Source of the DNA: a virus
Direction: 5' to 3' (one strand)
IMG/VR virus record: IMGVR_UViG_3300017917_002466
Location: 1-64,000 of that record
DNA: 64,000 nt
The translations under genes were made by a program, and so were the position numbers. Below, in pieces: positions 15,583-54,668 of this stretch. How positions within the stretch are numbered: the first letter of the stretch is position 1; every line of letters begins with the position of its first letter. Under the pieces are notes generated by a model that was not told the origin of the DNA, ran no database searches, and worked only from the letters and a program-made list of their open reading frames with translations.

Positions 15583-15664
15583 CCTCCTGATAGGTTAAAA
15601 AATAAAGTGGTAATCCTTACTTATCAGGTTTCAGGAAAAGGGTGGCCACCCTCTGTCCCACTTT
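15583..15664 (-). promoter_or_regulatory. Structured leader (copy C) with predicted pseudoknot over the Shine-Dalgarno
   Basis: RNA order on the minus strand: closing stem P1 (bases 15658-15664 with 15604-15610, AAAGTGG/CCACTTT), GACA at 15654-15657, hairpin P2 (GAGGGT GGCC ACCCTT), hairpin P3 with a large loop, ATTA at 15611-15614, P1 closing. The P3 loop bases CCTGATA (15622-15628) are complementary to TATCAGG (15586-15592), whose last two bases are the start of GGAGG. A weak late-promoter variant TATAATAA (15670-15677) would place +1 at the first base of P1. Same design as copies A, B, D and E. Confidence 0.65.
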
Positions 15665-15672
15665 TAGTTTTA

Positions 15673-16221
15673 TTATACTAACTCCCAAAAATCAAATTGC
15701 CAGGTTACGTCATACTTAACGGATTCGTTACCACCATAAGCCATAGTAACGTCACCTATGTTCTGGATAAAACAATTGTAGAAGCGAATCTTTTTCTCAA
15801 GTGGTGCACCATTATAAGCATACATAAGTAAGTAAACATCTTTTGCCACATCTCTCTTTTTTGGTCTAAGAGACTGACCACCAGTTGGGTCATTTGGGCT
15901 AATATTATAAATCAAATTCTGCCAGAATGTCAATGCTTTGTGAACAATCTGGTTTTCAGTTTCTTCAATATTAACCGCAAATGTGGAACCAAAAGTTGGT
16001 TTACCAGGAAAGTATTGCTTCATACCAATAAACTCACTAGTAATAGGTTCATTACCGCGAGAAGGTATGACTACTGACCTTGCACGAATAACCAAGTCTT
16101 CTACATCACCCATTATTCCACCCGTTACATCTGCAATGGACGGAATCAAAAGCTCCCACATCCAGTTACGCTGAATGTCAGGTAGTTGTTTTGCTCTGCC
16201 TTCTATTGTAAAATTTGGCAT
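15673..16221 (-). CDS. 19: Tail tube protein, gp19-like
   Basis: This 182-residue protein (T4 gp19 has 163) begins PNFTIEGRAKQLPDIQRNWM and contains IQRNWMWELLIPSI, the beta-strand KPTFGSTFAVNIEET and the C-terminal strand VKYDVTWQFDFWELV, all features of the gp19-like tube family. The tube is a stack of hexamers through which DNA passes. The gene follows the sheath gene 18 with a 17-base gap, the invariant 18-19 order of T4-like phages. Confidence 0.92.
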   Translation of the reverse strand: MPNFTIEGRAKQLPDIQRNWMWELLIPSIADVTGGIMGDVEDLVIRARSVVIPSRGNEPITSEFIGMKQYFPGKPTFGSTFAVNIEETENQIVHKALTFWQNLIYNISPNDPTGGQSLRPKKRDVAKDVYLLMYAYNGAPLEKKIRFYNCFIQNIGDVTMAYGGNESVKYDVTWQFDFWELV

Positions 16222-16238
16222 CTTACTCCTCCCTTATA

Positions 16239-18164
16239 TTATGCTGTAGCTATTCTTACTTCTTCAAAACTGATACCAGTACGGGTGATAACAGTTGTCA
16301 ACTGAATAAATTCAATTGTTCTTGCTGGCTGTACATAGATGTCAACATTCATTCTGTTTGAATCTATTACAGCAGGTGTGTTATTTGTTTCGTCAACAAC
16401 AACCTTGTATGCTGTCAATCCACCACCGGCCTGAACACCTGCCAAGAACTCGTCGACCAAGCTAAAGACTCTTAGTCTTGTCTTTGCAGTATTGTTCTCA
16501 AAGACGAATGGAAGTAATGATCTCTCAACATTATTCTCAATGAAAAGAAGATTTCTTCTAACATTGATTCTGTCAAGAGCAGATGCCTTCATTTGTGCAG
16601 TCTTCTGACCCCACATAACATATCCTGTTCCACGAATAAACTTAGGAACATTAATGTTTCTGTCATAAAGCTTTCCAATTTCATCATCTACAAAAACCTT
16701 TCTCTGGTCAAGAACTGAAAGGACTGCTCTATTAATACCTGCTGGAGCATCCCAAGGATTTGCGATATTGTCTACTCTTGCATAAAGAGCGGCTCCAAAA
16801 ATTGAATTTGGAAGGTAGACAAACTTATCATTATACTGGTCATAAGTCTTAGAGAAACCACCATAGATAGCAACATAAGATGGAGTTCTATATCCATACG
16901 CTTCTTTTGAAAGAACTTCTTCTGTTGAATCATCATCAAGAGTAGCTGCTTGAACTGTTGCAATAGCATCAGCTCTAGTAGCTGCAATTCTTCCCATTTC
17001 TTGTTTAATAGCAGTATTATTAGAAGTTCCAATAAGAATCTGAACGGATACATTTTCTCTATCTTCAAAGATTTTCCAAGCGGCAACATCATCATCACCA
17101 TTAGGATCAACTTTGGCTGGACTTGCCCCACCATCAAGAGGAATCAATCTATTATCTGTTGCTCCGCTTGTACCAGTTGTTTTATACTTAATGTATTCTT
17201 CTCCAGAAAGAGTTGCATACGGAAGAACCCCAGCATCAGCATCAGCTAATACTGGCCAGTTTAATGTTAGTGAGCTTCCTTTCTTTACATAGATATAAGT
17301 AGAATTTCCGTTTATAACATTCTCAATGAAAAGGTTATTTCCATTTCCATCCTTTAAATTCTCGTCTAAGGCTCCATAGAAAGTTTCAACAGGACTAATA
17401 TAAAGTCTTCCATTGGTTCTATCGTCTTGATTCCTGAAAAGATCATCCCACTCTTGAGTAGTTGTCTTAGTATAAACATTAATTTTAGCAACTTTACTTC
17501 CAATTGGATACCATGTCTGAATCTCACTAGTAGTCAAACCAGAAGTTGCACTTGCTGCTCTTGCACTAGTTGGGAATTCATCATAAGCAAATCTCCAATC
17601 AGCCGAAAGGCTGAATGGTTCAACAGTAACAGCAATACTATTACCATCTGTTCCAGGACCTAAAGCACCGACTAAAAAGTTAGATGCACCACCGGCAGCG
17701 GCATAACCGTCAAGAACACTAATATAAGTTTTAGTATCAAGTCTATCACCTTTTACCCAAGGAGTTCCAGTGATACCATCAGAAGATGTTGTAAACTGTA
17801 CGTCGCTTCCTTGTACGTTTATTTCATTATTAGCATACTTATCTGCTGTAGTTGTATATGATCTTACTACATAAAGTACTGAAGACTCTTTAAGGAATTC
17901 AAGTGAAGCATATGCTCCGTATCCATATTCTGGAACAAGATTCTGTGAGTTATTAGGAGCAGCGGAATTGTAACCAGATGTGAAAATTGGTTGTCCAAAA
18001 GTATCAATATACTCTTTATCGTTAGAAACAAGAACTGGTCTATTAACTGGACCTTTCTTTGCTCTAACTACAATTCCACCATTTGATATTCCAGTTGGAA
18101 CTAGAATTTCGGAAAGGTCGATTTCCCTTCTATATACACCGGGAGTTGAAAATACTCGTGCCAT
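16239..18164 (-). CDS. 18: Contractile tail sheath protein, gp18-like
   Basis: At 641 residues this is close to T4 gp18 (659). It starts MARVFSTPGVYRREIDLSE, the conserved sheath N-terminus (SPGVYxxExD) that forms the inter-subunit arm. The C-terminal quarter contains the conserved sheath fold: GTGYVMWGQKTAQ, LDRINVRRNLLFIE, then VQPARTIEFIQLTTVITRTG. In the virion the sheath surrounds the tube and contracts. The gene follows a small gene and a pair of late promoters and precedes the tube gene. Confidence 0.95.
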   Translation of the reverse strand: MARVFSTPGVYRREIDLSEILVPTGISNGGIVVRAKKGPVNRPVLVSNDKEYIDTFGQPIFTSGYNSAAPNNSQNLVPEYGYGAYASLEFLKESSVLYVVRSYTTTADKYANNEINVQGSDVQFTTSSDGITGTPWVKGDRLDTKTYISVLDGYAAAGGASNFLVGALGPGTDGNSIAVTVEPFSLSADWRFAYDEFPTSARAASATSGLTTSEIQTWYPIGSKVAKINVYTKTTTQEWDDLFRNQDDRTNGRLYISPVETFYGALDENLKDGNGNNLFIENVINGNSTYIYVKKGSSLTLNWPVLADADAGVLPYATLSGEEYIKYKTTGTSGATDNRLIPLDGGASPAKVDPNGDDDVAAWKIFEDRENVSVQILIGTSNNTAIKQEMGRIAATRADAIATVQAATLDDDSTEEVLSKEAYGYRTPSYVAIYGGFSKTYDQYNDKFVYLPNSIFGAALYARVDNIANPWDAPAGINRAVLSVLDQRKVFVDDEIGKLYDRNINVPKFIRGTGYVMWGQKTAQMKASALDRINVRRNLLFIENNVERSLLPFVFENNTAKTRLRVFSLVDEFLAGVQAGGGLTAYKVVVDETNNTPAVIDSNRMNVDIYVQPARTIEFIQLTTVITRTGISFEEVRIATA

Positions 18165-18179
18165 TATTTGCCTCCAAAT

Positions 18180-18332
18180 TTATTGGTTGTTCTTAGACTT
18201 TTTTAATCCTTCTTTCTTCGGCTGTATTTCAACGACTTCCGGTCTATTCAATTCTTCAGCCTTTACTACTTTTATCTCAACAGTAGTATTTATAGCTTTA
18301 CTCACTTTACCTGCATTTGGGTTTCTTCCCAT
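18180..18332 (-). CDS. Small hypothetical protein upstream of sheath gene
   Basis: This 50-residue frame starts at ATG 18330-18332 after AGAGGA and ends 15 bases before the sheath gene. Its sequence (start MGRNPNAGKVSKAINTTVEI) is basic at both ends with a central beta-like stretch TVEIKVVKAEEL, and no family was recognised. It is supported by its ribosome binding site and the two late promoters 30-57 bases upstream. The fit between the terminase and sheath genes, with little other space, also supports it. It is likely a small late protein that is co-transcribed with the sheath. Confidence 0.6.
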   Translation of the reverse strand: MGRNPNAGKVSKAINTTVEIKVVKAEELNRPEVVEIQPKKEGLKKSKNNQ

Positions 18333-18361
18333 AATTATTCCTCTGCTTAAAATTCACAAAG

Positions 18362-18369
18362 TATTTATA
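18362..18369 (-). promoter_or_regulatory. T4-type late promoter TATAAATA
   Basis: Exact minus-strand TATAAATA 30 bases upstream of the small gene at 18332, driving it and the sheath and tube genes. Confidence 0.75.
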
Positions 18370-18381
18370 TTTCTTCACTTG

Positions 18382-18389
18382 TATTTATA
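18382..18389 (-). promoter_or_regulatory. T4-type late promoter TATAAATA (second copy)
   Basis: Second exact TATAAATA, 20 bases upstream of the first and just past the stop of the terminase C-part. Tandem late promoters fit the high expression needed for sheath and tube. Confidence 0.7.
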
Positions 18390-18393
18390 CTTT

Positions 18394-19533
18394 TTACACC
18401 AAATCTTCATCCATAATAGCTGAAGGCTGCCAACTAGGATCACCTAAATCTTCCTGAGCATTAATTGCCTGAACTTCGTCTTCTTCTTTTCCTTCTTCCC
18501 ACTTACCTACTTGTACATTATACTCATCTTCTACATTCTTGGTTTCATAACTTTTTCCATTATAATCTTCTGTAGAAACAAAATATAAAGCCCAAAGTAA
18601 TGCTGTTACACAGTCATCGTGTTCGTGCCTTCCTGCCGCAAAAACATTTGGCTTAATTTCTTCAAATCTACTAAGTTCATAGATTGTTGGTTCGTCACAT
18701 ACTCTAATTCTATCTTTTTCAAGATATTCTTTAAGTAACATATTAGCTTTGAGTTTAGACTTTCTTGTACTTCTAACTCCTAAAGCATTTGGGTCTAAAT
18801 TAATCAAGTCCTCATATTCAAACTCGTGCCAAATTGTATCTGCTACAGTTCCACCAATATCATTGTTTTCAACCATCATATGGGCATTATTATAGAACTT
18901 GGCGACTGATACACATATCTGTGCAAAGTCTCTTGGATTAATCATATTGTTTCTGTAAATTGCTACTTGTTCAATATCATATTCATTTTTAATCCAAAGG
19001 ACTTGAATAACTGAATAATCTTTTCCTATTCCTTTACCAGTATCAACACCAAGCACATATTCTCCGCCGTGAACTGGTTGTCTATAAATTGACAAAAGTC
19101 CATTCCATTTGGTTGCGATTGGGTCTTTAAACTGAATTCTTTCAAGAACGTCCGAATCAATAAGAGTTGATTGACTTCCAAGAAATTTACAATTTTTACT
19201 TATAATATTATTTGTATAATAAGAATTATCAGAAGAATTAACTTGAAGTAATGTATAAACTTTTTCTTTCTTTTTATTCAATTCTATTTTAACTATTTCT
19301 TTTAAACCATTTTTTGTTTCAAGTAAATCGCCTTCAAGAAGATATTTTGATTGTTCTTCATTACCATTTATAATAAAAGTATGGTCAGTAGATACTTCAA
19401 TAATATTCTCATCTTCTAAAGTAAATTTTAAAATTTGAACTTTTTCTAAAACCTCACCGATACCAGCAAAAGTTTTAAAACCTTCAGGTGTTTCAACTTC
19501 AAAGTTTGATATAAATTTAGTTTTGGTTTTCAT
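18394..19533 (-). CDS. 17: Terminase large subunit, C-part: split-intein C-half plus nuclease domain
   Basis: Residues 1-114 of 379 are an intein C-half. They contain TPEGFKTFAGI, the block-B motif STDH, two beta stretches and the C-terminal ...NNIISKN. The next residue is Cys115, the +1 extein nucleophile, followed by KFLGSQSTLI, which matches the terminase sequence after the ATPase domain. The penultimate intein residue is Lys, not the usual His. Residues 115-379 are the RNase H-like nuclease: GVDTGKGIGKDYS (first Asp), MVENNDIGG, and HEHDDCVTALLWAL (last Asp). It should be joined in trans to the product of 20605-21510. The frame overlaps the endonuclease gene by 17 bases. Confidence 0.85.
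   Translation of the reverse strand: MKTKTKFISNFEVETPEGFKTFAGIGEVLEKVQILKFTLEDENIIEVSTDHTFIINGNEEQSKYLLEGDLLETKNGLKEIVKIELNKKKEKVYTLLQVNSSDNSYYTNNIISKNCKFLGSQSTLIDSDVLERIQFKDPIATKWNGLLSIYRQPVHGGEYVLGVDTGKGIGKDYSVIQVLWIKNEYDIEQVAIYRNNMINPRDFAQICVSVAKFYNNAHMMVENNDIGGTVADTIWHEFEYEDLINLDPNALGVRSTRKSKLKANMLLKEYLEKDRIRVCDEPTIYELSRFEEIKPNVFAAGRHEHDDCVTALLWALYFVSTEDYNGKSYETKNVEDEYNVQVGKWEEGKEEDEVQAINAQEDLGDPSWQPSAIMDEDLV
19192..19533 (-). other. Intein C-half (114 residues) of the terminase
   Basis: Coding segment for residues 1-114 of the C-part. It aligns in layout with the C-half of the AceL-TerL split intein as I remember it: a short leader, a TP(E/N)GF strand, a T/S-x-x-H motif, then the terminal Asn before Cys. 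Most of the intein's N-terminal domain is on this C-half, which makes the split atypical. Confidence 0.8.
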
Positions 19534-20518
19534 TCAATTTTTCCATAAATTGTTTTTCAGTTAAATAGTTTTTAGCCGAATTTATTTTACGAGAACAAAT
19601 ACATAAGTTTTTAAAAGAACCTATTTCTCTCGGATCAATCTTATTTACAAATCCATAATAAACAGAAATTTTATGGTCAATAGTTGGTTGCATAGAATTA
19701 GTATTAAAATGTCTATGATCTATTTTTTCATATTCTAAATTTCCAACTAATTTTTCTCCAGTATAATAATCATATCCATCAAATATTCTATAAACTCTAA
19801 TCCTATGTTTTAAAGTTTCATTTCTAACTAAAGACCAATATTTTTCATATTCAGTTTTAATTTTTCCAATCAACCATTTACCATTTTCTTCGTTACTTTT
19901 TCTTATTTTATCATAAACCCAATCTAATTGAGTATTCCACTCTACACCATATTTTTCTAAACAAGTTTGTTTTCTTTTATTTAAAATTATATTCAATTCT
20001 TCTTCAGTTAAATTTCTCCAAAATTTTTTTCTCTTTTCATTAATTTCTTTTTTATTTTCATTCAAAACTTTCCATCTAGCTTTAATACAAGACTTCATTA
20101 AAAAATTATGACTAACTCCATATTTTTCCTGAATAGTATTACTTTGTTTATTTTTGACATTTTCAACTTCCATAACATTATCGGCACCATATTTTTCTAA
20201 ACAAGTTTGTTTTCTTTTATTTGCTTCTTTTTTAACATCTCTTATTTCAAAAGATTTTTTAATTTTATCTCTAACATATTCTGATTTTTGTTGATGTTTT
20301 AAGCAACAAAATTTAGCATAACCTTTATTGTATCCATAAAATTTAGTTTCTTTTCCACAATATAAACATTTTCCTTCGTCTTCTTTTTTAATATGTTTAT
20401 CATAATATTCTTGTAAACTTATATTATGTTTTATTTTAAGATGATATTGACTAAAACTAATAATAGTTAAATTAGTTTGAATATTACATTCTTTACAAAA
20501 GAATTTTTCTTTTTCCAT
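19517..20518 (-). CDS. HNH-like homing endonuclease inside the terminase locus
   Basis: The N-terminus of this 333-residue protein is a C2H2-like finger (FFCKECNIQT...HLKIKH) followed by a second cysteine cluster (CLYCG...CCLKH). The middle has two KRKQTCLEKYG repeats and a related TIQEKYGVSHN, a pattern of DNA-binding modules. The C-terminus has PTIDHKISVYYGF and FKNLCICSRKINSAKNYLT, an HNH-like centre with DH and an N-containing helix. It sits exactly between the two halves of the split intein, so it is the endonuclease that would normally be embedded in an intein. A degraded relative lies at 23002-23167. Confidence 0.75.
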   Translation of the reverse strand: MEKEKFFCKECNIQTNLTIISFSQYHLKIKHNISLQEYYDKHIKKEDEGKCLYCGKETKFYGYNKGYAKFCCLKHQQKSEYVRDKIKKSFEIRDVKKEANKRKQTCLEKYGADNVMEVENVKNKQSNTIQEKYGVSHNFLMKSCIKARWKVLNENKKEINEKRKKFWRNLTEEELNIILNKRKQTCLEKYGVEWNTQLDWVYDKIRKSNEENGKWLIGKIKTEYEKYWSLVRNETLKHRIRVYRIFDGYDYYTGEKLVGNLEYEKIDHRHFNTNSMQPTIDHKISVYYGFVNKIDPREIGSFKNLCICSRKINSAKNYLTEKQFMEKLNENQN

Positions 20519-20530
20519 TTTTGACTCCTT

Positions 20531-20538
20531 TATAAATA
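20531..20538 (+). promoter_or_regulatory. Plus-strand TATAAATA of the inverted leader (copy E)
   Basis: Exact plus-strand TATAAATA facing into the terminase N-part. Its predicted +1 coincides with the first base of stem P1 of leader copy E. No gene follows on this strand. Confidence 0.45.
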
Positions 20539-20543
20539 AAATT

Positions 20544-20604
20544 TAGAGGGACATATAGGAGATTTGACTCGCCTATCGCAGAACGCCAATTCTGCTTACC
20601 TCTA
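20544..20604 (+). promoter_or_regulatory. Inverted orphan copy E of the structured leader
   Basis: Read on the plus strand: stem P1 (TAGAGG 20544-20549 with CCTCTA 20599-20604), GACA at 20550-20553, P2 (ATAGG 20555-20559 with CCTAT 20572-20576, extended inward by GAG/CTC), P3 (GCAGAA 20578-20583 with TTCTGC 20590-20595, loop CGCCAA), TTA at 20596-20598. This is the same order as in copies A-D. The adjacent endonuclease gene, however, lies on the other strand, and no complement to the P3 loop next to a Shine-Dalgarno is present. On the minus strand the same palindromic arms would still fold as a three-way junction. Confidence 0.5.
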
Positions 20605-21510
20605 TTATTTATATTTTTTACTTTTAAAAAATTCCCCAATTTCAATATTTTTTTCTACTTTCATCTTTATATCTCTAATATTTATAATAGTTTGTGAATT
20701 AGCGCATTGAAATTCTTGTGCGAATCTGATTGGGTTAGTATCAGCAATGGTTTGCTTTTTCCATTTTTCATCTCTACCAGGAACTTCCCACCAGCCAACA
20801 CTTATAGGAAAGAAGTTATTAGTATTTTCTGTTCTGATAGCCTTAGCCCAAAATTCATAAAAGTGGTTCAAACCCTTTGGGGTTGAAACCATAATAATCT
20901 TGTTGCCTTCATAGCTTGAAATAACTGGATAGGTTGATGTAATGAATTCTTCGGCAACGTGAGAAGGAACCTTGGCAAACTCATCCAAGAAAAGAAGGTT
21001 AACGGTTAAAGAGGTCAAAGCTTCCGCAGAGGTAGCAGATGCTAGTATCCTTGAACCATTCTCAAATTCAACAGACTTTTTATTCCAACCACTTTCTGTT
21101 AATCCTTGTTGTAGCCAAATAGGAAGCATTGTTATAGCTGTTTTAACTCTTTTTAAAATATCTACAGCGGCTTCTTGTTTATGAGCCACGATTGCAACAG
21201 TCTTATCCTTATTGAATAATGCATACCAAAGTAAAAAAATGGTTGAAACAGTAGTCTTTCCACTCTGTCTGGCTATCTTTACGATACAATGTCTCTTGTT
21301 ATTTGGGGTTTCTACGAAGGCTTTTAATACTTTCTTTTGCCATTCATAAAGAACAATCTTTGACTTTCCTTTTTTACCAGTAATAATATAAAAGTAATTC
21401 TCAGCAAAGTAAACAATATCCGTTTTACACTTGATGATTTCATCAATCATCTTTTGAGTATATTCAATCTTTTCACCAACTTTTCTTAAATTAGGATTTC
21501 CAAAAAACAT
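20605..21510 (-). CDS. 17: Terminase large subunit, N-part: ATPase domain plus split-intein N-half
   Basis: Residues 1-268 of 301 are the packaging ATPase: Walker A ARQSGKTT near residue 85, Walker B LLFLDEFA near 175, and the coupling motif VSTPKG near 210. The extein ends FAQEFQ. Cys269 begins an intein N-half of 33 residues (CANSQTIINIRD...IEIGEFF) and the frame stops at 20605-20607 inside a late promoter. Together with the C-part the exteins give about 533 residues, comparable to T4 gp17 (610). The two parts should ligate by protein trans-splicing to restore FAQEFQ-CKFLGS. Confidence 0.9.
   Translation of the reverse strand: MFFGNPNLRKVGEKIEYTQKMIDEIIKCKTDIVYFAENYFYIITGKKGKSKIVLYEWQKKVLKAFVETPNNKRHCIVKIARQSGKTTVSTIFLLWYALFNKDKTVAIVAHKQEAAVDILKRVKTAITMLPIWLQQGLTESGWNKKSVEFENGSRILASATSAEALTSLTVNLLFLDEFAKVPSHVAEEFITSTYPVISSYEGNKIIMVSTPKGLNHFYEFWAKAIRTENTNNFFPISVGWWEVPGRDEKWKKQTIADTNPIRFAQEFQCANSQTIINIRDIKMKVEKNIEIGEFFKSKKYK
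20606..20613 (-). promoter_or_regulatory. T4-type late promoter for the terminase-locus endonuclease
   Basis: Exact minus-strand TATAAATA that overlaps the stop codon of the terminase N-part and lies 88 bases upstream of the endonuclease ATG. Transcripts would start near 20600, at the arm CCTCTA of leader element E. Confidence 0.7.
20608..20706 (-). other. Intein N-half (33 residues) of the terminase
   Basis: Coding segment for Cys269-Lys301 of the N-part. It has the block-A order C-x4-T-x-I and a terminal IEIGEFF strand. Its length is close to the 25-residue N-half of AceL-TerL and far shorter than canonical split N-inteins (about 90-120 residues). Confidence 0.8.
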
Positions 21511-22046
21511 TATTCAATATCCTTTTCTTTTTTGAACCTGGCCGATGGTAAATGCTCATCTTCAATTGTAAAAGTGGCTTCAATTTTATTCATTTCACTT
21601 GTTGCACTGGCTTTATTTATCATATCAAGAAGCTGTTCCGAACTTAAGGATATTTTATTATTAGCTCCAATATTTTTAATATCAACTGCTCCAACTTGAA
21701 CTTGAGCATCAAAAATATTCTTATTCAATTCAATAAGAGAATTATATTGCTTACCAATAGCTTCTATAAGCTTTGCGTATACTTCTATCTTACGATTGTC
21801 AGTTCCTATCTTAATGTCTTGCTCAACCTTATACATGACTGTTCTCGCAGACATAATAAGGGAACGAAGTTCTGTTCTGATAAAGTCTTGATCTTGTAGT
21901 AATGTGGTAGGAGATTTTACTTTAAGTTCAATCTCAGTCTTTTTATTTTCAATCAAATTCATATCACGATCAACTTCTTTAATTATCTTTTTAAACTCTT
22001 CATCATTGATATTAAACGCACTGGTCAACCCTTCAAACCCTTCCAT
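21510..22046 (-). CDS. 16: Terminase small subunit, gp16-like
   Basis: At 178 residues this is close to T4 gp16 (164). It is highly helical: the central part (FIRTELRSLIMSARTVMYKV, then GTDNRKIEVYAKLIEAIGKQ) corresponds in character to the coiled-coil core of gp16-type small terminases, which form rings that recognise DNA ends and stimulate gp17. The acidic N-terminus and basic C-terminal tail flank it. It overlaps the large subunit by one base and has AAAGGAGAG ahead of its start. The 16-17-18-19 order is that of T4. Confidence 0.8.
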   Translation of the reverse strand: MEGFEGLTSAFNINDEEFKKIIKEVDRDMNLIENKKTEIELKVKSPTTLLQDQDFIRTELRSLIMSARTVMYKVEQDIKIGTDNRKIEVYAKLIEAIGKQYNSLIELNKNIFDAQVQVGAVDIKNIGANNKISLSSEQLLDMINKASATSEMNKIEATFTIEDEHLPSARFKKEKDIE

Positions 22047-22059
22047 AATAAACTCTCCT

Positions 22060-23001: not shown

Positions 23002-23167
23002 TTAATTTTTTCCAATTTTATTTTTAAATTCTTCTTCTGTCATATAATTTTTTACACTATTAGTACTTCTACTACAAATACATAAATTATTTATGAGTTT
23101 GATTAATATGAGACATTAAACCTTGTAAACTTTTACATTCTTTTCTGCAAATCTTACAAATTTCCAT
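23002..23167 (-). pseudogene. Internally deleted homing endonuclease remnant
   Basis: A 26-codon frame at 23087-23167 encodes a zinc-finger-like N-terminus (EICKICRKECKSLQGLMSHI). It is followed, out of frame, by coding for INNLCICSRSTNSVKNYMTE up to the stop at 23002-23004. The second piece matches the C-terminal part of the endonuclease at 19517-20518 (FKNLCICSRKINSAKNYLTE). Most of the central part, including the catalytic DH segment, is deleted. The cassette keeps its leader (copy A) and late promoter. Confidence 0.75.
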
Positions 23168-23173
23168 AATTTA

Positions 23174-23248
23174 CCTCCAACTAGGTTAAAAATTGGGATA
23201 ATCTTTTGAGTTGGCAAAAGAAACGCCCGTCGGCGCTGTCTCCCTCTA
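23174..23248 (-). promoter_or_regulatory. Structured leader (copy A) with predicted pseudoknot over the Shine-Dalgarno
   Basis: Minus-strand RNA: GGGA (23241-23244), GACA, hairpin P2 (CGCC GACG GGCG), hairpin P3 at 23203-23220 (CTTTTG, loop CCAACT, CAAAAG), ATTA, TCCC. The loop CCAACT is complementary to AGTTGG at 23177-23182, which runs into GGAGG (23174-23178). P1 is weak here (4 bp), P2 and P3 are strong. It precedes a dead endonuclease remnant. Confidence 0.65.
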
Positions 23249-23256
23249 TATTTATC
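23249..23256 (-). promoter_or_regulatory. Late promoter variant GATAAATA of the endonuclease remnant cassette
   Basis: It overlaps the stop codon of the cupin gene and places +1 near the first bases of leader copy A. One mismatch from TATAAATA. Confidence 0.45.
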
Positions 23257-24001: not shown

Positions 24002-24003
24002 AG

Positions 24004-24231
24004 TTATACTCCTAAAGTTTGTTTAATTTTATCTATAATTGAAAGTTCTTCGCCTTCTTTTGGTTCATTAAGATATTCACTACCAAATTTTCTTGTAAGC
24101 CGAATTTGTACTTCTTCCCAACGAGCACCTTGGTCTAACATCTTCTTAGCTGTATCAATAATGAAATTAATTTCATCATCTGCGCCTTCTTCATCGTCAA
24201 TAAATTGATCTAGTTCTTGTAGAATATCCAT
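24004..24231 (-). CDS. Small acidic helical protein
   Basis: This 75-residue protein starts MDILQELDQFIDDEEGADDE and continues in a helical, acidic sequence (MLDQGARWEEVQIRLTRKFG). It lies within the cluster of small genes between gp13 and gp15 and touches its neighbours (one-base overlap upstream, three-base gap downstream). The TRKFGSEYL segment and the acidic beginning give no family that I recognise. Co-location suggests a head or neck accessory role. No signal peptide, membrane segment or metal motif is present. Confidence 0.6.
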   Translation of the reverse strand: MDILQELDQFIDDEEGADDEINFIIDTAKKMLDQGARWEEVQIRLTRKFGSEYLNEPKEGEELSIIDKIKQTLGV

Positions 24232-24614: not shown

Positions 24615-24616
24615 AT

Positions 24617-24892: not shown

Positions 24893-24893
24893 T

Positions 24894-25097: not shown

Positions 25098-25109
25098 ATT
25101 GACTCCTCC

Positions 25110-25889: not shown

Positions 25890-25890
25890 A

Positions 25891-26938: not shown

Positions 26939-26965
26939 CTTAGTCCTCCTTTTCAAATTTTCAAT

Positions 26966-27106
26966 TTAATACATTTTGGTATGTTTAACTAAATTATCTT
27001 CTTTAGTTAATAACTGAAGATTTGTATAATGACACAATTTATTAACCTCTTCTTCAGTTTTAGCAGTCACTAAAGGAATGATATGGTCTATATGATACCT
27101 ATTATT
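26966..27106 (-). pseudogene. N-terminally deleted HNH endonuclease remnant
   Basis: An open stretch without start encodes YHIDHIIPLVTAKTEEEVNK and then LCHYTNLQLLTKEDNLVKH. This is nearly identical to the C-terminal part of the intact HNH enzyme at 35027-35755 (YHIDHIVPLSTAKTEEDV). The whole N-terminal part is missing, and the piece is joined directly to leader copy B and its late promoter. It is therefore a deletion derivative of an endonuclease cassette between the major capsid gene and the next head gene. Confidence 0.8.
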
Positions 27107-27110
27107 TTAA

Positions 27111-27167
27111 AGTAGAGATAATCTTTGTGTTGGCAAAGAAAAGTTAATTACTCCCTGTCTCTCTACT
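27111..27167 (-). promoter_or_regulatory. Structured leader (copy B), endonuclease deleted
   Basis: Minus-strand RNA: perfect 8-bp closing stem P1 (AGTAGAGA 27160-27167 with TCTCTACT 27111-27118), GACA 27156-27159, P2 (GGGAGT/ACTTTT with G-U pairs), P3 at 27123-27138 (CTTTG, loop CCAACA, CAAAG), ATTA 27119-27122. The Shine-Dalgarno and partner strand are lost with the deletion of the gene start. Confidence 0.65.
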
Positions 27168-27171
27168 TATG

Positions 27172-27179
27172 TATTTATA
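27172..27179 (-). promoter_or_regulatory. T4-type late promoter ahead of leader copy B
   Basis: Exact minus-strand TATAAATA. The expected transcription start falls at the first base of leader stem P1. Confidence 0.65.
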
Positions 27180-27204
27180 CTTGAATGACTTCTGAACGCA
27201 AAAT

Positions 27205-43404: not shown

Positions 43405-43426
43405 CTTTTCTCCAAATTTTCAAACA

Positions 43427-43852: not shown

Positions 43853-43864
43853 TTGAAATACTCC

Positions 43865-44317: not shown

Positions 44318-44331
44318 ATGAATATCCTCAC

Positions 44332-44706: not shown

Positions 44707-44716
44707 TAGAAATCTC

Positions 44717-45457: not shown

Positions 45458-45471
45458 TTTACTCTCCTTGT

Positions 45472-46879: not shown

Positions 46880-46907
46880 TAAAGTTCTCCGATAAAATAA
46901 ATTTCTA

Positions 46908-48452: not shown

Positions 48453-48478
48453 AAAAATTCCTTAATTTGAAAAAATTA

Positions 48479-48895
48479 TTATAAAAGGCCCAGCTTCATT
48501 TTTTTGAGGTCTACGAAGTTCTTGATTCTAAATCCAAGATTATCTATATGAGTCAAAGTTTTCTCTAAAAAGTTAACTTGAGTTTCAATTTGAGAAAATT
48601 CTAGTTTGAGTTGATAATATTGGTTGTCATTGAAAATATAAATTTCAGCTTCTTTTATTGATTCTACTGACCTACCATTGTAGCCTTCGTTTTTATACTT
48701 AGCATAATTAATCCCAAAACACCTATCAATTTCAAGCTTTTTTTCTTTAAGAGATTTTAACTCTTTTGAGTAAATTTTTAAAACCATTGAGTACAGGTTA
48801 GAAAGTTGAATAGATTTTTCCATTACATTGTCTTCAGTAACTTTCAGTTCAATTTCAATTCGGTCTTTCAATTTCTGAAAATCTTCAGTCTTCAT
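48479..48895 (-). CDS. uvsY: Recombination mediator UvsY-like
   Basis: The start is placed at ATG 48893-48895 (MKTEDFQKLKDRIEIEL) after AAGGAG. The product of 138 residues equals T4 UvsY (137). It has the same helical layout and a C-terminal segment LTHIDNLGFRIKNFVDLKKM. That corresponds to the T4 end ALDAIKSRGFAIKHIQDMRA. UvsY loads UvsX onto gp32-covered single-stranded DNA. The gene is the first of the minus-strand transcript, next to uvsW. Confidence 0.8.
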   Translation of the reverse strand: MKTEDFQKLKDRIEIELKVTEDNVMEKSIQLSNLYSMVLKIYSKELKSLKEKKLEIDRCFGINYAKYKNEGYNGRSVESIKEAEIYIFNDNQYYQLKLEFSQIETQVNFLEKTLTHIDNLGFRIKNFVDLKKMKLGLL

Positions 48896-49028
48896 AAACA
48901 AACTCCTTATGGAAAAGTAGGAAAGCGGCCGAAGGCCGCACTTTCTAGGTTATTTAGGTCTTTAGGAAACTTAAGGTCTAGGTACCAGTTTCCGGGTTCT
49001 AGAACCAAGATACCTAGAAAACTCTAGA

Positions 49029-49036
49029 TATTTATA
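49029..49036 (-). promoter_or_regulatory. T4-type late promoter TATAAATA toward uvsY/uvsW
   Basis: Exact minus-strand word between two CTAG repeats, about 135 bases upstream of uvsY. It would allow late expression of uvsY and uvsW. Confidence 0.6.
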
Positions 49037-49073
49037 CCTAGGTTCTTTCTAGGTTCTTTATTTTTATATATTC

Positions 49074-49101
49074 ATTATAGGCGATTTTAGAACCCTGAAA
49101 A
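49074..49101 (-). promoter_or_regulatory. Possible sigma70-like promoter toward uvsY
   Basis: Minus-strand TTTTCA, 16-base spacer, then perfect TATAAT. The -35 matches four of six positions. It would add early transcription to uvsY/uvsW. Confidence 0.4.
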
Positions 49102-49151
49102 AGAAAAACCCAACAGATTGTGGAAAAAATTTCAATAAACACAATTAAACA

Positions 49152-49180
49152 TTGACAACTCAGAAAGAAAATGTTATCAT
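49152..49180 (+). promoter_or_regulatory. Early sigma70-like promoter of the gp46 operon
   Basis: Perfect -35 TTGACA (49152-49157), a 17-base spacer and -10 TATCAT (49175-49180) with an extended TGT just before. It lies 37 bases upstream of the gp46 start. Two more promoters in the window share the same spacing and the ATGTTAT word. Confidence 0.8.
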
Positions 49181-49216
49181 ATGATTAGTGCTTAATCCAT
49201 TTGAAACGGAGAAACT

Positions 49217-50992
49217 ATGGTAGTAACATTTAAAAAGCTTGTATTTCAGAACATTTTGTCATTCGGAGCAAAGCCGATAACAATAGATTTTCAACACGGA
49301 GTCAATCTGATTTCAGGAAAAAATGGATCAGGAAAGTCAGCAATACTCGATGCTTTATCTTTCTGCTTATTTGGTCAACCCTACCGCAAAATCAAAATTA
49401 AAGAATTAATAAATCGTCGAAATAAGCGTAATTTAAGCGTTACTTGTGAGTTCGTTATTGACGAAAAAGATACTTTTACGATCACAAGAACAATGAATCC
49501 AGACACAATAGAAATTTTGAAAAATAGGGAGGAGCTTGAGCTTCTTTCATCTAAGCGCTTAAATCAAGAGGAAATTGACAAGATAATCGGCATCAACTAC
49601 CAGATGTTCAAACAAGTCATTTCGTTGGCTGTCAACTATAACAGGCCATTTTTATCTCTACAGCTTTGGGAAAAGAGAGAAATTATTGAACAAATTTTCA
49701 ATATTGTAGTTTTTGGACAGATGCTTAAGTATCTCAAAAAGAACAATGTTGAAATCAAAACCAAGAATGAAGTGAATGAAAGAACTATTAAAATCCTTGA
49801 AGAAAATCTAAAATCTTTACGAAGAAGAGTTACTGAACTAACAGAAGCCCAAAGTAATTTCAAAACCAACAAGGAAAAAGACCTATCGGATATTGATGGT
49901 CGTATTAAACAATATTTAGCTGAAAGAATACAAATAGATGAAGAAATTGAATCATTAACTGACTGTATTGATAAAAGTAGCTATGATGAAGAAAAAATTA
50001 AACAACTTAAAACAGAAAGAGATACGGTAATTAAAAGTATCAATGAAAATGAATATGCGACCAAAACCTCAATTGAACAAATATCATTGATAGATCGCAA
50101 TACCGTTTGTCCGTGGTGCAAGAATGAAATAACTGCTGAACACAAAGATACAGAAATTAAAAGATTATCTGGGGAGAACAGAGACAGAGTCACCGCGGTT
50201 AAAGGACTTAAAAGTCATAGGATAGAAATTGAAAAGGAAATATCTAGACAGGAAACTTGGCTACAAGAACTTAACGATTTTAAATCTAAAAAAGAGGCTT
50301 TACAAGATAAAATAAATATAATAGATCGAGAAATAACTAGTGCTGAAGAAAGAAGAAACGAAATTCTCAACAGAGAAATTGAGTTTAATCTTGATAATTT
50401 AATTCAAGAATTTGAAGACAAAAAAAATGAGTACAAAGTAATTTGGAATGAAACTAAAGGTATCAAAAAGAAGCTTAAAAATAATGATATTATCCAAAGT
50501 ATTCTTTCAGAAAGTGGTATTAAGGCTTATTTCTTTAAGAAACTTATCCCTATTCTTAACAGTAAAATTAACGAGTATATCAAACTTTTTGAACTTCCAG
50601 TTATCATTCAATTTGATGAATTGATGAATGAGAAGATAACCAACCTTGAAAATCTAAGGGGTGAAATTTCGTACTATGCATATTCGGAAGGAGAAAAGAA
50701 GCGAATTGATATGTCCATTCTCCTTTCATTTATCAGTATTACAAAAATTATTTCAAATTGGAACTGTAACCTTTTGATTATTGATGAACTTTTAGATAGT
50801 GCTATTGATGAAAGTGGTCTTGAAAAGTTAGTTGGTAGTTTAAAAAATATGTCATTTGACTCAAAAGAACTATGCATATACATAATATCACATAGATTAC
50901 AACAAGAATATAGTACACATTTTAAAAACTGTATAACTATTCAAAAGAATAACAACAGTTTTTCAGATGTTATCTTCTCTAAGGAGGCGTAA
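49217..50992 (+). CDS. 46: Recombination endonuclease subunit gp46 (SbcC/Rad50-like)
   Basis: This 591-residue protein (T4 gp46 has 560) has a Walker A motif SGKNGSGKSAILDAL near residue 35. Long coiled coils flank a zinc hook CPWCKNEI near residue 295, and the C-terminal signature YAYSEGEKKRIDMS and Walker B NLLIIDELLDSAI follow. With gp47 it forms the Mre11/Rad50-type complex that resects DNA ends for recombination-dependent replication. It is the first gene of the early plus-strand operon behind a sigma70-like promoter. gp55 follows with one base between. Confidence 0.95.
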   Translation: MVVTFKKLVFQNILSFGAKPITIDFQHGVNLISGKNGSGKSAILDALSFCLFGQPYRKIKIKELINRRNKRNLSVTCEFVIDEKDTFTITRTMNPDTIEILKNREELELLSSKRLNQEEIDKIIGINYQMFKQVISLAVNYNRPFLSLQLWEKREIIEQIFNIVVFGQMLKYLKKNNVEIKTKNEVNERTIKILEENLKSLRRRVTELTEAQSNFKTNKEKDLSDIDGRIKQYLAERIQIDEEIESLTDCIDKSSYDEEKIKQLKTERDTVIKSINENEYATKTSIEQISLIDRNTVCPWCKNEITAEHKDTEIKRLSGENRDRVTAVKGLKSHRIEIEKEISRQETWLQELNDFKSKKEALQDKINIIDREITSAEERRNEILNREIEFNLDNLIQEFEDKKNEYKVIWNETKGIKKKLKNNDIIQSILSESGIKAYFFKKLIPILNSKINEYIKLFELPVIIQFDELMNEKITNLENLRGEISYYAYSEGEKKRIDMSILLSFISITKIISNWNCNLLIIDELLDSAIDESGLEKLVGSLKNMSFDSKELCIYIISHRLQQEYSTHFKNCITIQKNNNSFSDVIFSKEA

Positions 50993-50993
50993 G

Positions 50994-51359
50994 ATGGCAG
51001 AATATATTAACAACAAGGAATTTCACGGTCTGTTGAAAGACTACAGACAAACAAGGTCTAAGAAAATATTTGAACAAATTGGTAAAAGTTTTTTGTTAAT
51101 AGCCAAAAATCTTCTTAACAAATCTAACTTTATTAATTACACTCAAGATAGAAAAGATGAAATGATTTCTGATGCTGTTTATTATATGTGTAGATATGTT
51201 GATAAGTTTGATGTTGAAAGAAAGAATCCATTCGCGTATTTCACAATGATAGCTAGAAATGCCTTTCTCCAGAATATTAATGATTATTCCAAACGTGACT
51301 TAATGTTTACAAGTATTGAGTATATAGATAATTGTGAAGTTGCGGATAATATTTTATAA
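50994..51359 (+). CDS. 55: Late-transcription sigma factor, gp55-like
   Basis: The start is placed at ATG 50994-50996 after AAGGAGG. The 121-residue product contains AEYINNKEFHGLLKDYRQTR, LLIAKNLLNKSNFINYTQDR, KDEMISDAVYYMCRYVDKFD and NPFAYFTMIARNAFLQNIND. These line up with T4 gp55 ([48 protein letters not shown]), equivalent to sigma region 2. T4 gp55 has 185 residues and ends in a clamp-binding DFLYEANDL. Here the frame stops at a TAA that is part of a TATAAATA element at an endonuclease insertion. In-frame codons beyond it read IIRQNMNDFL then stop, so the C-terminus may have been cut off. Confidence 0.8.
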   Translation: MAEYINNKEFHGLLKDYRQTRSKKIFEQIGKSFLLIAKNLLNKSNFINYTQDRKDEMISDAVYYMCRYVDKFDVERKNPFAYFTMIARNAFLQNINDYSKRDLMFTSIEYIDNCEVADNIL

Positions 51360-51362
51360 ATA
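51355..51362 (+). promoter_or_regulatory. T4-type late promoter at the gp55 stop codon
   Basis: Exact plus-strand TATAAATA that supplies the stop codon of gp55. It is the first of two late promoters ahead of the endonuclease gene at 51419. Confidence 0.6.
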
Positions 51363-51387
51363 ATTAGACAAAATATGAATGATTTTT

Positions 51388-51395
51388 TATAAATA
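51388..51395 (+). promoter_or_regulatory. T4-type late promoter of the endonuclease gene
   Basis: Exact plus-strand TATAAATA 24 bases upstream of the endonuclease ATG. Its predicted start lies in the loop of the hairpin described next. Confidence 0.75.
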
Positions 51396-51413
51396 CTTCT
51401 AAAGGAGAGAAGT
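51395..51413 (+). promoter_or_regulatory. Ribosome-binding-site hairpin overlapping a late promoter
   Basis: Stem ACTTCT (51395-51400) with AGAAGT (51408-51413), loop AAAGGAG holding the Shine-Dalgarno. RNA that starts upstream contains the full hairpin, whereas RNA from the late promoter starts within the loop and lacks the 5' arm. This is the arrangement known for intron endonuclease genes of T4. Confidence 0.6.
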
Positions 51414-51418
51414 TAGTT

Positions 51419-52318
51419 ATGAAAAATCTTATAAAACAATTTCAAAAAGTTCATGGAAATAAGTATAATTATGATAAAGTAGTTTATAATAATTGTAGAA
51501 CTAAAATTTGTATTATTTGTCAAGAACATGGAGAATTTTGGCAACTTCCACTCAATCATAGAAATGGTCAAGGATGTCCAGATTGTGGTAAAAAAGACCA
51601 AGTTAGGCAAGTTCAAAATGAAGAATTTATTCGACGATTAGTAGATAAGTATGGAAATCAATATAATTTTGATAAAACTATTTTTAGAGGTACTAAAAAA
51701 AGAATAATTGTTACTTGTAAACAACATGGAGATTTTGAAGTTTTTCCGTTTAATTTCCTTAAAGGAAAAGGTTGTCCAAAATGTGTAAATGAAAGAGTTA
51801 GTAATGAAAGAAGGAATGATTTTGATAAAATAGTTCAAAAATTTAATAAAGTTCATAATTTTAAGTACGATTATTCAAATTCAGTCTATCAAAATTATTG
51901 TAAGAAAATTGAAATTATTTGTTCAAAACATGGTTCTTTTTGGCAATCAGTCTCAGACCATATAAAAGGAAGAGGTTGTCCAATTTGTAAAAGCTCTAAA
52001 GGAGAAATTATTGTTAGTAATATTTTGCTTAAAAAACAAATTGAATTTATTCCACAAAAAAGATTTGAAGAATGTAAATTATTTAAACCATTGGCGTTTG
52101 ATTTCTTTTTACCAAAAAATAATACTTGTATAGAATATAACGGCATTCAACATTATGAATCTTTAGATTATTTTGGTGGAAAACAAGAATTAGAAGAAAT
52201 TCAAAAAAGAGATGCTATTAAAATTAAATTTTGTAAAGACAATAATATTAAGTTAATAATAATACCATATTGGAAATTGGATGAAATTGAAAATATTTTA
52301 AAAGGATTTTTATTATGA
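51419..52318 (+). CDS. DUF723-repeat homing endonuclease with Vsr-like nuclease domain
   Basis: Three DUF723-type repeats make up about residues 1-200 of this 299-residue protein (QKVHGNKYNYDKVVYNN..., then EHGEFWQ...GCPDC, and two more), each ending in a Cys pair. The C-terminal domain has PLAFDFFLPKNNTCIEYNGI followed by QHYES, the catalytic Asp, Glu, Gln-His set, then KLIIIPYWKL. It lies between gp55 and gp47, overlapping the gp47 start by four bases, with its own late promoters and hairpin. Composition is more AT-rich than that of its neighbours. Confidence 0.82.
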   Translation: MKNLIKQFQKVHGNKYNYDKVVYNNCRTKICIICQEHGEFWQLPLNHRNGQGCPDCGKKDQVRQVQNEEFIRRLVDKYGNQYNFDKTIFRGTKKRIIVTCKQHGDFEVFPFNFLKGKGCPKCVNERVSNERRNDFDKIVQKFNKVHNFKYDYSNSVYQNYCKKIEIICSKHGSFWQSVSDHIKGRGCPICKSSKGEIIVSNILLKKQIEFIPQKRFEECKLFKPLAFDFFLPKNNTCIEYNGIQHYESLDYFGGKQELEEIQKRDAIKIKFCKDNNIKLIIIPYWKLDEIENILKGFLL

Positions 52319-53364
52319 TGATTTGTTTGGTTAGCGACCTTCACTTCGGCGTTAGGAAAAATTCTGAAATCTTCTTAGAAAGCCAAGTAAGGTTTGTTGA
52401 AGAACAATTTATCCCTTATCTCAAAGAGCATAACATCAAAGAAGTCTTCATCCTTGGAGATTTGTTTGATAATCGCAACAGCACGAATACAAAAGTGATG
52501 AATACGGTATTTGACTTATTTGATAAAAAGCTCACCGATTTTAATGTTCATATGCTCATTGGAAACCACGACTGTTACTTTAACAGTTCAGTTGAAATTA
52601 ATTCACTAAAGTTTCTTGAAAAATTCTCCAATGTCAATCTTGTTGAAAAAATTACCGTTGTTGAGGTTGGTAGAAAAAAGATAGTTATGGTTCCTTGGGT
52701 TACCGATACCCTTTCGTTTGTCAGAGATTTTAGCCAAATAGAATCCTGTGATCTTTGCTTTGGACATTTCAATATATACGGATTCAATTTCAACAAAGTT
52801 AAAAGAAGCGATGATGGAATACAAGGAAAGCTTTTTGCTAAGTTCAAGAAAGTTTTCACAGGTCATTTCCATATCCGAAATTCACAGAATGTTCAAGGAA
52901 GTGATATCATTTATATCGGTTCACCTTTTCAATTAACAAGAAACGATATAGATGAGAATAGAGGATTTGTTATTTTGGATACTGATACTTTAGAGTATCA
53001 GCATATAGATAACAATGTCTCACTTAAATATATAAAGATAAAATACCCCGAAAAGTTTACATCAAGCAGAATCAAGAATAATATCATAGACGTTTATGTG
53101 GATTATGATGAAAATTATAATGAAGAAAAAGTTAATAAATACGTTAAAAAGATAGAAGAATTTGGACCAGCCTCAACACCTAATATCTTCGTTGAGAATA
53201 ATAACGCATTGAACAGTGATATTGATTTAGAAAATTATAAATTTGGTTCAATGCTTGATCTTATGAGAGAATATGTAGACAGTCTTGATGTCGGAAATAA
53301 AGAAGAAATTAACCAACTTCTCATTGAATTGTACAATGAGTCCACTAAAGGTGAAAGTATTTAA
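52315..53364 (+). CDS. 47: Recombination endonuclease subunit gp47 (Mre11/SbcD-like)
   Basis: This 349-residue protein (T4 gp47 has 339) shows calcineurin-like phosphoesterase motifs in order: SDLHFGVR, GDLFDNRN, IGNHDCYF and TGHFHIRN, which bind two metal ions. The C-terminal cap (about 235-349) binds gp46. Together they process double-strand ends. The gene overlaps the inserted endonuclease by four bases; the first ATG at 52315 and the next codon ATG are both possible starts behind AAAGGA. Confidence 0.95.
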   Translation: MMICLVSDLHFGVRKNSEIFLESQVRFVEEQFIPYLKEHNIKEVFILGDLFDNRNSTNTKVMNTVFDLFDKKLTDFNVHMLIGNHDCYFNSSVEINSLKFLEKFSNVNLVEKITVVEVGRKKIVMVPWVTDTLSFVRDFSQIESCDLCFGHFNIYGFNFNKVKRSDDGIQGKLFAKFKKVFTGHFHIRNSQNVQGSDIIYIGSPFQLTRNDIDENRGFVILDTDTLEYQHIDNNVSLKYIKIKYPEKFTSSRIKNNIIDVYVDYDENYNEEKVNKYVKKIEEFGPASTPNIFVENNNALNSDIDLENYKFGSMLDLMREYVDSLDVGNKEEINQLLIELYNESTKGESI

Positions 53365-53375
53365 GGAGAAGAAAG

Positions 53376-54575
53376 ATGGAAAATCAGCAGCAAATTCCTA
53401 CCAGTAATTACGAAGTGTTTAGACAACATTTGTTGAATCCAAACACAGCTTTTGAACTTTCTGTCCAAGAAGGACAGATAATGAAAATTCAAAAAAATTT
53501 GGTAATATCTTACGTTTCGGATTCGACGGGATGTGGCCACATTAGAAACATTTTTCCAATGACATATCTGAATTCTATTTTTGGAAAAACCGGAAGATTC
53601 AATATCATCATATCACCAGTTATGCTTTTCCAACACGATGTTCTTTTGAGAACAAGAAGTATTTTCTTCCAAAGAACTATGGCACCTGGACATATTCAAG
53701 CTGTCAAAATGTACAAGGATGCACAGAAGAAATACGGATTCAAAATGGTCTACGACATTGACGACTTCATTTGGGATGGTCCGGATGAAGGAGAAACTAT
53801 TCCTCCGTATAACTTTGGAAAAGATGGAATCACACCAGAAGTTCAAAAATCTTCACTTGAAATTATGAACGAAATGGACGTTGTATGTGTCTCGACAGAT
53901 TTTCTTGGACAGTATATTAGAAATCACGGAGTAACAAATCCCAAGATAATTACAGTCTATAATGCTGTTCCTCAATACTTCTGGGGGCCTCAGAGAAAGA
54001 AGCCTATTAAAGAAAAATTGAAGAAGCCAAGAGTTATTTACACTGGAAGTCCCACTCATTATCATCAAATGAAAAAATTAAAAGGAGACTGGGAAAATGC
54101 TTGGTGTGAATGGGTTATCAAAAACGTGGAAAATGGTAAGATTGAGTTTTGTTGTATGGGTGGTCTTCCTTTCTTCTTTGAAGGAATCAAAAATAAAATC
54201 AAAATAGTTGACTGGGTCAACTCATATCAGTATCATCTTCCAATCAAGGATTTCCGTGCAGATATTGGAGTTGCGCCGCTTGTACCAAACTATTTCAACT
54301 ATAGTAAGTCCGATATTAAACATATAGAGTATTGCGCTCTTGGAATCCTAAGTATAGGAACTGTATTTACAAATGGAAGGCCAAGCCCTTATGACAATAA
54401 CCTTCTAAAAGTCCCGAACAACTGCTCTGTACAAGATATAGACAGACTTGTAGACGAATATACAGAACCAGAAAATTACAATAGAATCATTAAACAGCAA
54501 TATGAAATATTGGATAAAACCGGGAGGTGGCTTGAAAGCCCCGAATATGTCAAGATGATTACAGAAATTTTATAA
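53376..54575 (+). CDS. Glycosyltransferase, GT4/GT1-like (GT-B fold)
   Basis: In this 399-residue protein residues about 30-60 have the nucleotide-sugar fold start (NLVISYVSDSTGCGHIRNIF). The middle contains KMVYDIDDFIWDGPDEGETI and VVCVSTDFLGQYI. The second half has RVIYTGSPTHYHQM and then ADIGVAPLVPNYFN...KSDIKHIEYCALG, which resembles the acceptor/donor-binding region of retaining GT4 enzymes. A YDIDDDLW-type motif is common in phage and bacterial members of this group. The target may be modified phage DNA or a cell-surface sugar. It lies in the gp46-gp47 early operon with AAGGAG ahead of it. Confidence 0.75.
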   Translation: MENQQQIPTSNYEVFRQHLLNPNTAFELSVQEGQIMKIQKNLVISYVSDSTGCGHIRNIFPMTYLNSIFGKTGRFNIIISPVMLFQHDVLLRTRSIFFQRTMAPGHIQAVKMYKDAQKKYGFKMVYDIDDFIWDGPDEGETIPPYNFGKDGITPEVQKSSLEIMNEMDVVCVSTDFLGQYIRNHGVTNPKIITVYNAVPQYFWGPQRKKPIKEKLKKPRVIYTGSPTHYHQMKKLKGDWENAWCEWVIKNVENGKIEFCCMGGLPFFFEGIKNKIKIVDWVNSYQYHLPIKDFRADIGVAPLVPNYFNYSKSDIKHIEYCALGILSIGTVFTNGRPSPYDNNLLKVPNNCSVQDIDRLVDEYTEPENYNRIIKQQYEILDKTGRWLESPEYVKMITEIL

Positions 54576-54578
54576 ATA
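54571..54578 (+). promoter_or_regulatory. T4-type late promoter of the broken GIY-YIG cassette
   Basis: Exact plus-strand TATAAATA that contains the stop codon of the glycosyltransferase. Its predicted +1 is at the start of leader D. Confidence 0.7.
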
Positions 54579-54585
54579 ATTTTAG

Positions 54586-54668
54586 AGTATGTTAGGACAG
54601 GGAGGCATCCTTTTCTGACACGAACAGAATTACTGACATACTTCTTTCAAATACCTTATTCGTGGAGG
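54586..54668 (+). promoter_or_regulatory. Structured leader (copy D) with predicted pseudoknot over the Shine-Dalgarno
   Basis: P1 is AGTATGTTAG (54586-54595) with CTGACATACT (54633-54642), ten pairs including one G-U. GACA is at 54596-54599. P2 is GGGAGG CAT CCTTTT. P3 is TTCTG (54613-54617), loop ACACGAA, CAGAA (54625-54629). ATTA is at 54629-54632. The loop bases CACGAA (54619-54624) are complementary to TTCGTG (54659-54664), which leads into GGAGG at 54664-54668. Confidence 0.7.

Follow-up and report, generated by a model that had tools for sequence, protein, structure and literature searches.

A structured RNA leader family tied to homing endonuclease genes in T4-like phages, with a predicted kissing-loop clamp over the Shine-Dalgarno sequence

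The stretch of DNA analysed here, referred to as the window, comprises bases 1-64,000 of G000, an IMG/VR virus record of 253,664 b. Pfam matches in the window to gp23, a gp15-type tail sheath stabiliser, a T4-type terminase and a baseplate protein together indicate that G000 is a T4-like phage. The large terminase gene (18394-21510) is interrupted after codon 301 by a DUF7487 zinc-finger endonuclease-like gene on the minus strand (19517-20518); in the relatives G023, G029, G031 and G036 the terminase frame runs uninterrupted for more than 500 aa.

An earlier note on this DNA had pointed to five places with a shared RNA anatomy in front of homing endonuclease genes. Four of these (copies 1, 3, 4 and 5) stand as members of one family, whose fold runs in the order P1, GACA, P2, U, P3, UUA, P1', a linker and a P4 hairpin. 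Copy 1 (15583-15666, minus strand, anatomy read directly) has its three-way-junction core, P1-GACA-P2-P3-UUA-P1', at 15602-15666 (cmsearch 47.9 bits, E 4.9e-12). Its P3 loop is of the type II subtype described below, with GAAA...AGUA, and presents the strand CCTGATA (15622-15628), which makes 7 Watson-Crick pairs with its kissing partner at 15586-15592 in the P4 hairpin AACC-TATCAGGA-GGTT (15581-15596); the SD AGGAGG lies inside this hairpin at 15583-15588. The gene 3' of copy 1 (14905-15576, minus strand) encodes a GIY-YIG homing endonuclease with NUMOD3, as judged from its translation and from Pfam (NUMOD3 1.2e-12, GIY-YIG 1.4e-4). Copy 3 (23174-23249, minus strand, likewise read directly) has a core at 23190-23249 (48.5 bits, E 3.1e-12), a loop-3 strand CCAACT (23209-23214) with 6 pairs to 23177-23182, and the P4 hairpin ACCT-AGTTGG-AGGT (23173-23186), in which the SD GGAGG occupies 23174-23178. 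Behind it lies a zinc-finger homing endonuclease remnant of 26 codons (MEICKICRKECKSLQGLMSHINQTHK; 23087-23167, minus strand), a reading frame taken from the sequence.

Copy 4 retains the best-scoring core in the window (27110-27168, minus strand; 75.5 bits, E 4.6e-21) and has lost P4 and the SD, the sequence downstream of it containing neither a start codon nor an SD. Its SD partner is missing through loss of the 5' portion of its HNH gene, of which a C-terminal remnant is left (RYHIDHIIPLVTAKTEEEVNKLCHYTNLQLLTKEDNLVKHTKMY; 26966-27100, minus strand), recognised as HNH by motif reading. Copy 5 (54587-54668, plus strand, also read directly) has a core at 54587-54641 (49.4 bits, E 1.6e-12), a loop-3 strand CACGAA (54619-54624) with 6 pairs to 54659-54664, and a P4 hairpin ACCT...AGGT (54653-54669) with the SD GGAGG at 54664-54668; behind it lies a GIY-YIG homing endonuclease pseudogene (54674-55232, plus strand) whose frame is broken after 53 codons. 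The three complementarities between loop and SD region in the earlier note, CCAACT/AGTTGG, CCTGATA/TATCAGG and CACGAA/TTCGTG, are exactly as it gave them. Its late-promoter-like word before each copy is present as a TATAAATA box at copy 4 (27172-27179, minus strand) and copy 5 (54571-54578, plus strand), but copy 1 has no TATAAATA box.

A descriptor scan for P1, GACA, P2, P3, TTA and P1' gave 4 matches in the window (copies 1, 2, 4 and 5), against 0-1 per shuffled 64 kb; copy 3 was missed because its P1 of 4 bp falls under the P1 threshold of the descriptor. Under the covariance model described below, the four window members score 47.9-75.5 bits, with E values of 1e-12 to 1e-21. The remaining place of the earlier note, copy 2 (20544-20604, plus strand), is a descriptor match alone and is excluded from the family: it is absent from the covariance-model list to E<=5, its neighbour genes lie on the minus strand so that it is antisense to them, its P2 lacks the G-U/UUU signature and it has no SD partner.

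Copy 2 belongs with a set of three-way-junction-like folds that lie between convergent TATAAATA boxes on both strands, found at window 20531-20613, L236:9686-9754, G000 99716-99805 and L095:1550-1623. These 'Class B' junctions (20550, 99733, L095 and L236:9686) score 15-24 bits where scored and were excluded because they are without an SD partner. A homologue of the fold at 20.5 kb occurs in a related record and shows a compensatory change in P2 (19.8 bits).

MAFFT achieved no alignment of the five raw copies alone. The covariance model, R1, was based on an alignment (A3) of 17 copies found in G000, nearly all of which have a loop complementary to the downstream SD. On G000, R1 returns these 17 copies at 48-76 bits and everything else at 16 bits or less; the high scores are expected, since the same copies built the model, and R1 also picks up independent members in other contigs. 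Members in other records were collected by pattern scans of viral contigs together with R1, and by searches of whole records, giving about 68 distinct members in some 40 IMG/VR records. After removal of duplicates, alignment A4 holds 59 rows, that is 58 members and the weak outlier L095, which was set aside; about 10 further members lie beyond A4. The earlier note had proposed such a model and search, naming a lack of further covarying examples as the outcome that would count against it; instead, about 60 further covarying members were found.

The member-bearing records, where this could be tested, carry T4-type gp23 or gp17, and in the large ones where gp23 was found it is 57-87% identical to that of G000. 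A whole-record search of G040 (169 kb, gp23 62% identical to that of G000) found no member. A pattern scan of bacterial and archaeal genomes gave two weak matches, of which one scores 18 bits under R1 and the other is not on its list. BLASTN of two leaders against annotated phages returned nothing, or short partial matches at 33-34% coverage. With R1, the best E value in 12 whole annotated phage records (nearly all isolates, with related endonucleases, capsids or terminase) was 0.11, and thus no member was found in a cultured phage. The earlier note knew of no described RNA family with this consensus, and this agrees with Rfam 15, in which none of 4,227 families matched the window at the gathering cut-off and even short pieces at permissive thresholds gave best chance matches far under it. 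A literature search, with subscription journals largely outside its reach, found no account of such a leader. We conclude that the leaders form a real family of structured RNAs that covaries strongly and is associated with homing endonuclease genes, and that neither Rfam nor the papers searched describe it.

All readable downstream genes look like homing endonucleases, and they come from unrelated families. Pfam matches and reading of translations give NUMOD3, GIY-YIG, DUF723/DUF4379 repeats, HNH and zinc-finger types, the PD-(D/E)XK/EDxHD-like C-terminus of the DUF723/DUF4379-repeat proteins being a label by reading, without a Pfam match. The statement in the earlier note that the element travels with unrelated GIY-YIG and HNH-like cassettes is therefore borne out, and extends to DUF723/EDxHD-like and zinc-finger types. 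Leaders of different nuclease families can be up to 90% identical, as with L006:15811, whose downstream gene is of DUF723 type, and L007:8555, which precedes an HNH-type fragment; this argues that the leader has been shared or exchanged between cassettes. Elsewhere in G000, at 68828-68965 (L002), a gp23 piece of 46 aa and 70% identity lies about 0.6 kb upstream of a leader and a GIY-YIG gene, a possible relic of homing or duplication. L002:8926-12429 is a ribonucleotide reductase frame with an intein-like insertion, soon after three leader/GIY-YIG cassettes.

The family members share P1-GACA-P2(G-U)-U-P3-UUA-P1' with covarying helices. In the 17 copies of A3, 90% of cells are paired against 67% when shuffled, 17 of 19 pairs have changed on both sides and the covariation is 0.69 against 0.25. 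For P1-P3 in A4 the corresponding values are 91% against 65%, 18 of 19 pairs with double changes and 0.666 against 0.216, and pairing falls to 46-54% in slid versions of the alignment. The similar values of A3 come from a MAFFT alignment that was not fitted to the structure, and RNAalifold, unaided, recovers P1 and P3. Amid this variation all 58 members keep GACA, the UU after P2 and AUUA unchanged (100%), and the junction bases are 95-100% conserved overall, while the rest of the fold covaries. The closing pair of P2 is G-U in 56 of 58 members; a conserved G-U has no counterpart on the opposite strand, which makes the sense RNA the functional molecule. In a type II subtype, to which copy 1 and over a dozen other members belong, GAAA...AGUA flanks a kissing strand of 7-8 nt; judged by its sequence, this P3 loop looks like a bulged-G (sarcin-ricin type) motif.

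The second layer of structure joins loop 3 to the SD region, and 52 of 58 members have at least 6 Watson-Crick pairs here. On average 6.31 pairs form, compared with 3.97 +- 0.12 when the partners are permuted (maximum 4.41 in 5,000 permutations), and 36 different 6-mers occur among the pairings; the earlier note had inferred covariation of the partners from three copies, and it holds across the family. Four members have no pairing partner (27110 in the window, L006:16852, L079 and L217), and these have no readable start downstream. In two members pairing is poorer despite a start codon, namely L214 (4 pairs, a bulge and a broken gene) and L215 (5 pairs). Among copies of one genome, only 4 of 210 off-diagonal pairs attain 6 Watson-Crick pairs, and thus there is no sign of a designed trans network.

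The pseudoknot anatomy of the earlier note was right in P1-P3 and in the pairing of loop and SD, but it overlooked P4. Loop 3 is complementary to the loop of this hairpin and the SD is divided between the P4 loop and its 3' strand; since the SD lies inside P4, the contact is a kissing loop. The P4 stem score is 3.64, against 3.26 +- 0.11 when shuffled, with 1 of 2,000 shuffles equally high, and the stem covaries, ACCT/AGGT being swapped for ACTC/GAGT, TTCTC/GAGAA, GCCT/AGGC, AATCT/AGATT and AATTC/GAATT. The linker ahead of the SD strand is usually 12-20 nt. In isolation P4 is weak, with a mean MFE of -3.1 kcal/mol and only 2-5 bp in several members, and the loop-loop duplex contributes about -6.3; closure is therefore expected to rely on the three-way junction.

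A late-promoter box, [TCG]ATAAATA, is found in 49 of 59 distinct hits (the weak L095 included) and lies 8-18 nt upstream of GACA in 48 of 59. The transcription starts predicted from T4 late-promoter geometry fall at the foot of P1 in most members. The box is mostly 11-18 nt upstream of GACA, so the predicted late RNA retains P2, P3 and P4 in full and the greater part of P1; in three members it is just 8-9 nt upstream (23240 in the window, L213 and L216). Loop 3 is always 3' of the predicted start. Some type II members lack a late box, and some members have other promoter-like sequences. At L177:1501-1614 a perfect sigma-70-type promoter, TTGACA-N17-TATAAT, replaces the late box, with the start again expected at the P1 foot.

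The apical regions of P2 have a property of their own. Palindromes of 6 nt occur in 19 of 38 distinct P2 apical regions, a count inflated by related members, compared with a shuffled mean of 4.5 and a maximum of 13 in 5,000; window 15638-15653 is an example. Of 20 apical regions of even length, 11 have a palindrome at their four central bases, against an expectation of 1/16, and neither P3 loops (0 of 59) nor linkers (3 of 53) are enriched. Similar P2 stems carry differing palindromes, such as TTCGAA, TTGCAA, GTCGAC, GTCATGAC and TAGCTA. These loops suggest loop-loop dimers of the mRNA, which we regard as a lead and not a result.

From the computed fold, covariation, kissing, P4 and gene association, together with the predicted start, we infer with a probability of roughly three in four that the leader represses translation in cis, acting as an RNA clamp with a riboswitch-like layout. 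Transcription from the late-promoter box would begin at about the foot of P1, and the 5' leader would adopt a three-way-junction fold whose invariant core consists of GACA, the G-U pair at the P2 base, U and A-UUA. The junction would then present the P3 loop, which would kiss the loop of the weak downstream P4 hairpin. As the SD lies within the loop and 3' strand of P4, the clamp would occlude the endonuclease SD and so would be expected to lower translation of the nuclease. Because the predicted start site is outside the fold, late transcripts would carry the clamp, and expression would thus be low or conditional, in contrast to I-TevI, which is switched on by promoter position. The core inference of the earlier note, a translational control element, is supported by a covarying leader predicted to cover the SD.

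The nearest precedent offers a different reading, namely the classical timing of I-TevI, segB and mobE, in which early or middle read-through transcripts alone fold into the structure and have their RBS blocked, while late transcripts, starting inside it, escape. The gene type is the same, the late box is similar, the RBS is sequestered, and P1 could be truncated in 23240, L213 and L216, where the box is closest to GACA. We nevertheless consider this unlikely, as the box distances in most members keep P2, P3, P4 and most of P1 in the late RNA and the inhibitory strand, loop 3, is never excluded from it. Somewhat less probable again is that the leader mainly stabilises mRNA, with P1 at the 5' end shielding against 5'-end-dependent decay and the SD pairing secondary; the predicted start at the P1 foot would suit this, but the 36 different complementary loop-3/SD pairings and the covariation of P4 would be left unexplained. 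That the element acts as DNA, as an operator, cruciform or endonuclease site, seems very improbable. The palindromic P2 loops and the upstream operator used by I-TevI (PMC2988022) speak for it, but the conserved G-U pair works on one strand only, and the P1-P4 pairing keeps a fixed orientation to gene and SD and is common to unrelated nucleases.

A further reading makes the leader a ligand- or protein-responsive switch (riboswitch or protein operator), with a putative binder at the invariant junction opening or closing the clamp. This is possible, at clearly less than even odds. The 95-100% conservation of the junction amid covariation is consistent with it, as is the layout of an aptamer and a kissing RBS hairpin, known from corrinoid riboswitches (PMC10653944). 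The same leader also serves unrelated nucleases, which argues against autoregulation by the nuclease itself. On the other hand, a competing alternative fold was not found and the invariant bases may serve folding only; together, the invariant junction bases and the use by unrelated nucleases suggest either a common factor or merely a required fold. More speculative still is a new RNA-switch class, in which endonuclease mRNAs might sense a shared signal via the invariant junction, or their own concentration via palindromic P2 dimers, and close the SD by the cis kissing loop so that the nuclease limits itself.

With translational repression by the clamp as the preferred reading, pairing of the loop with the ribosome-landing site probably keeps nuclease production low or conditional. 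Selfish nucleases with unrelated mechanisms would then have one RNA control module in common within a group of T4-like phages, one genome of which has 17 copies, and the module would offer 36 different natural kissing-loop/SD codes on a single scaffold. It makes testable the long-standing question of how phages and homing endonucleases keep the nuclease tolerable once the late promoter is on. Should a ligand or protein bind the junction, the leader would represent a new class of switch, and mRNA dimerisation through the palindromic P2 loops would become a candidate means of controlling dosage.

Several known RNAs resemble parts of this design. The HIV-1 DIS is a palindromic kissing hairpin that dimerises, and its likeness here is in the 6-nt self-complementary loops on P2, some of them purine-flanked; the difference is that P2 dimerisation is deduced from loop statistics alone. 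A flavivirus-xrRNA-like fold, which has a similar topology, was considered and rejected, given the long linker before the SD strand and a different junction. The T4 gene 32 leader, by which gp32 autoregulates, is also a case of phage translational control by a pseudoknotted leader (PMC3014915), but it has another fold without a three-way junction, no SD pairing of its own, and serves one gene only.

Corrinoid (cobalamin) riboswitches resemble the clamp in layout and in nothing else, having an aptamer loop that kisses a hairpin (L5-L13) and so promotes the RBS hairpin (PMC10653944). They share with the clamp a multi-helix domain, a loop kissing a downstream hairpin and stabilised RBS occlusion; the clamp, by contrast, is a three-way junction of about 60 nt with 36 kissing codes rather than one that is conserved, and has no Rfam match and thus no conserved B12 aptamer core. 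In the T4-type endonuclease genes I-TevI, I-TevII, I-TevIII, segB and Aeh1 mobE, RNA likewise covers the RBS next to a late promoter, the RBS being hidden only on read-through transcripts because the late promoter lies inside the hairpin (PMC2988022, PMC3014915). Those hairpins are simple, gene-specific and escaped by internal late starts. The clamp family also pairs with the RBS of homing endonuclease genes, but does so through one conserved multi-helix fold with an invariant junction and a kissing loop, common to unrelated nucleases and predicted on the late transcript. By the predicted starts, late transcripts retain the inhibitory loop 3 together with P4, and the I-TevI type of escape would therefore be unavailable to the clamp.
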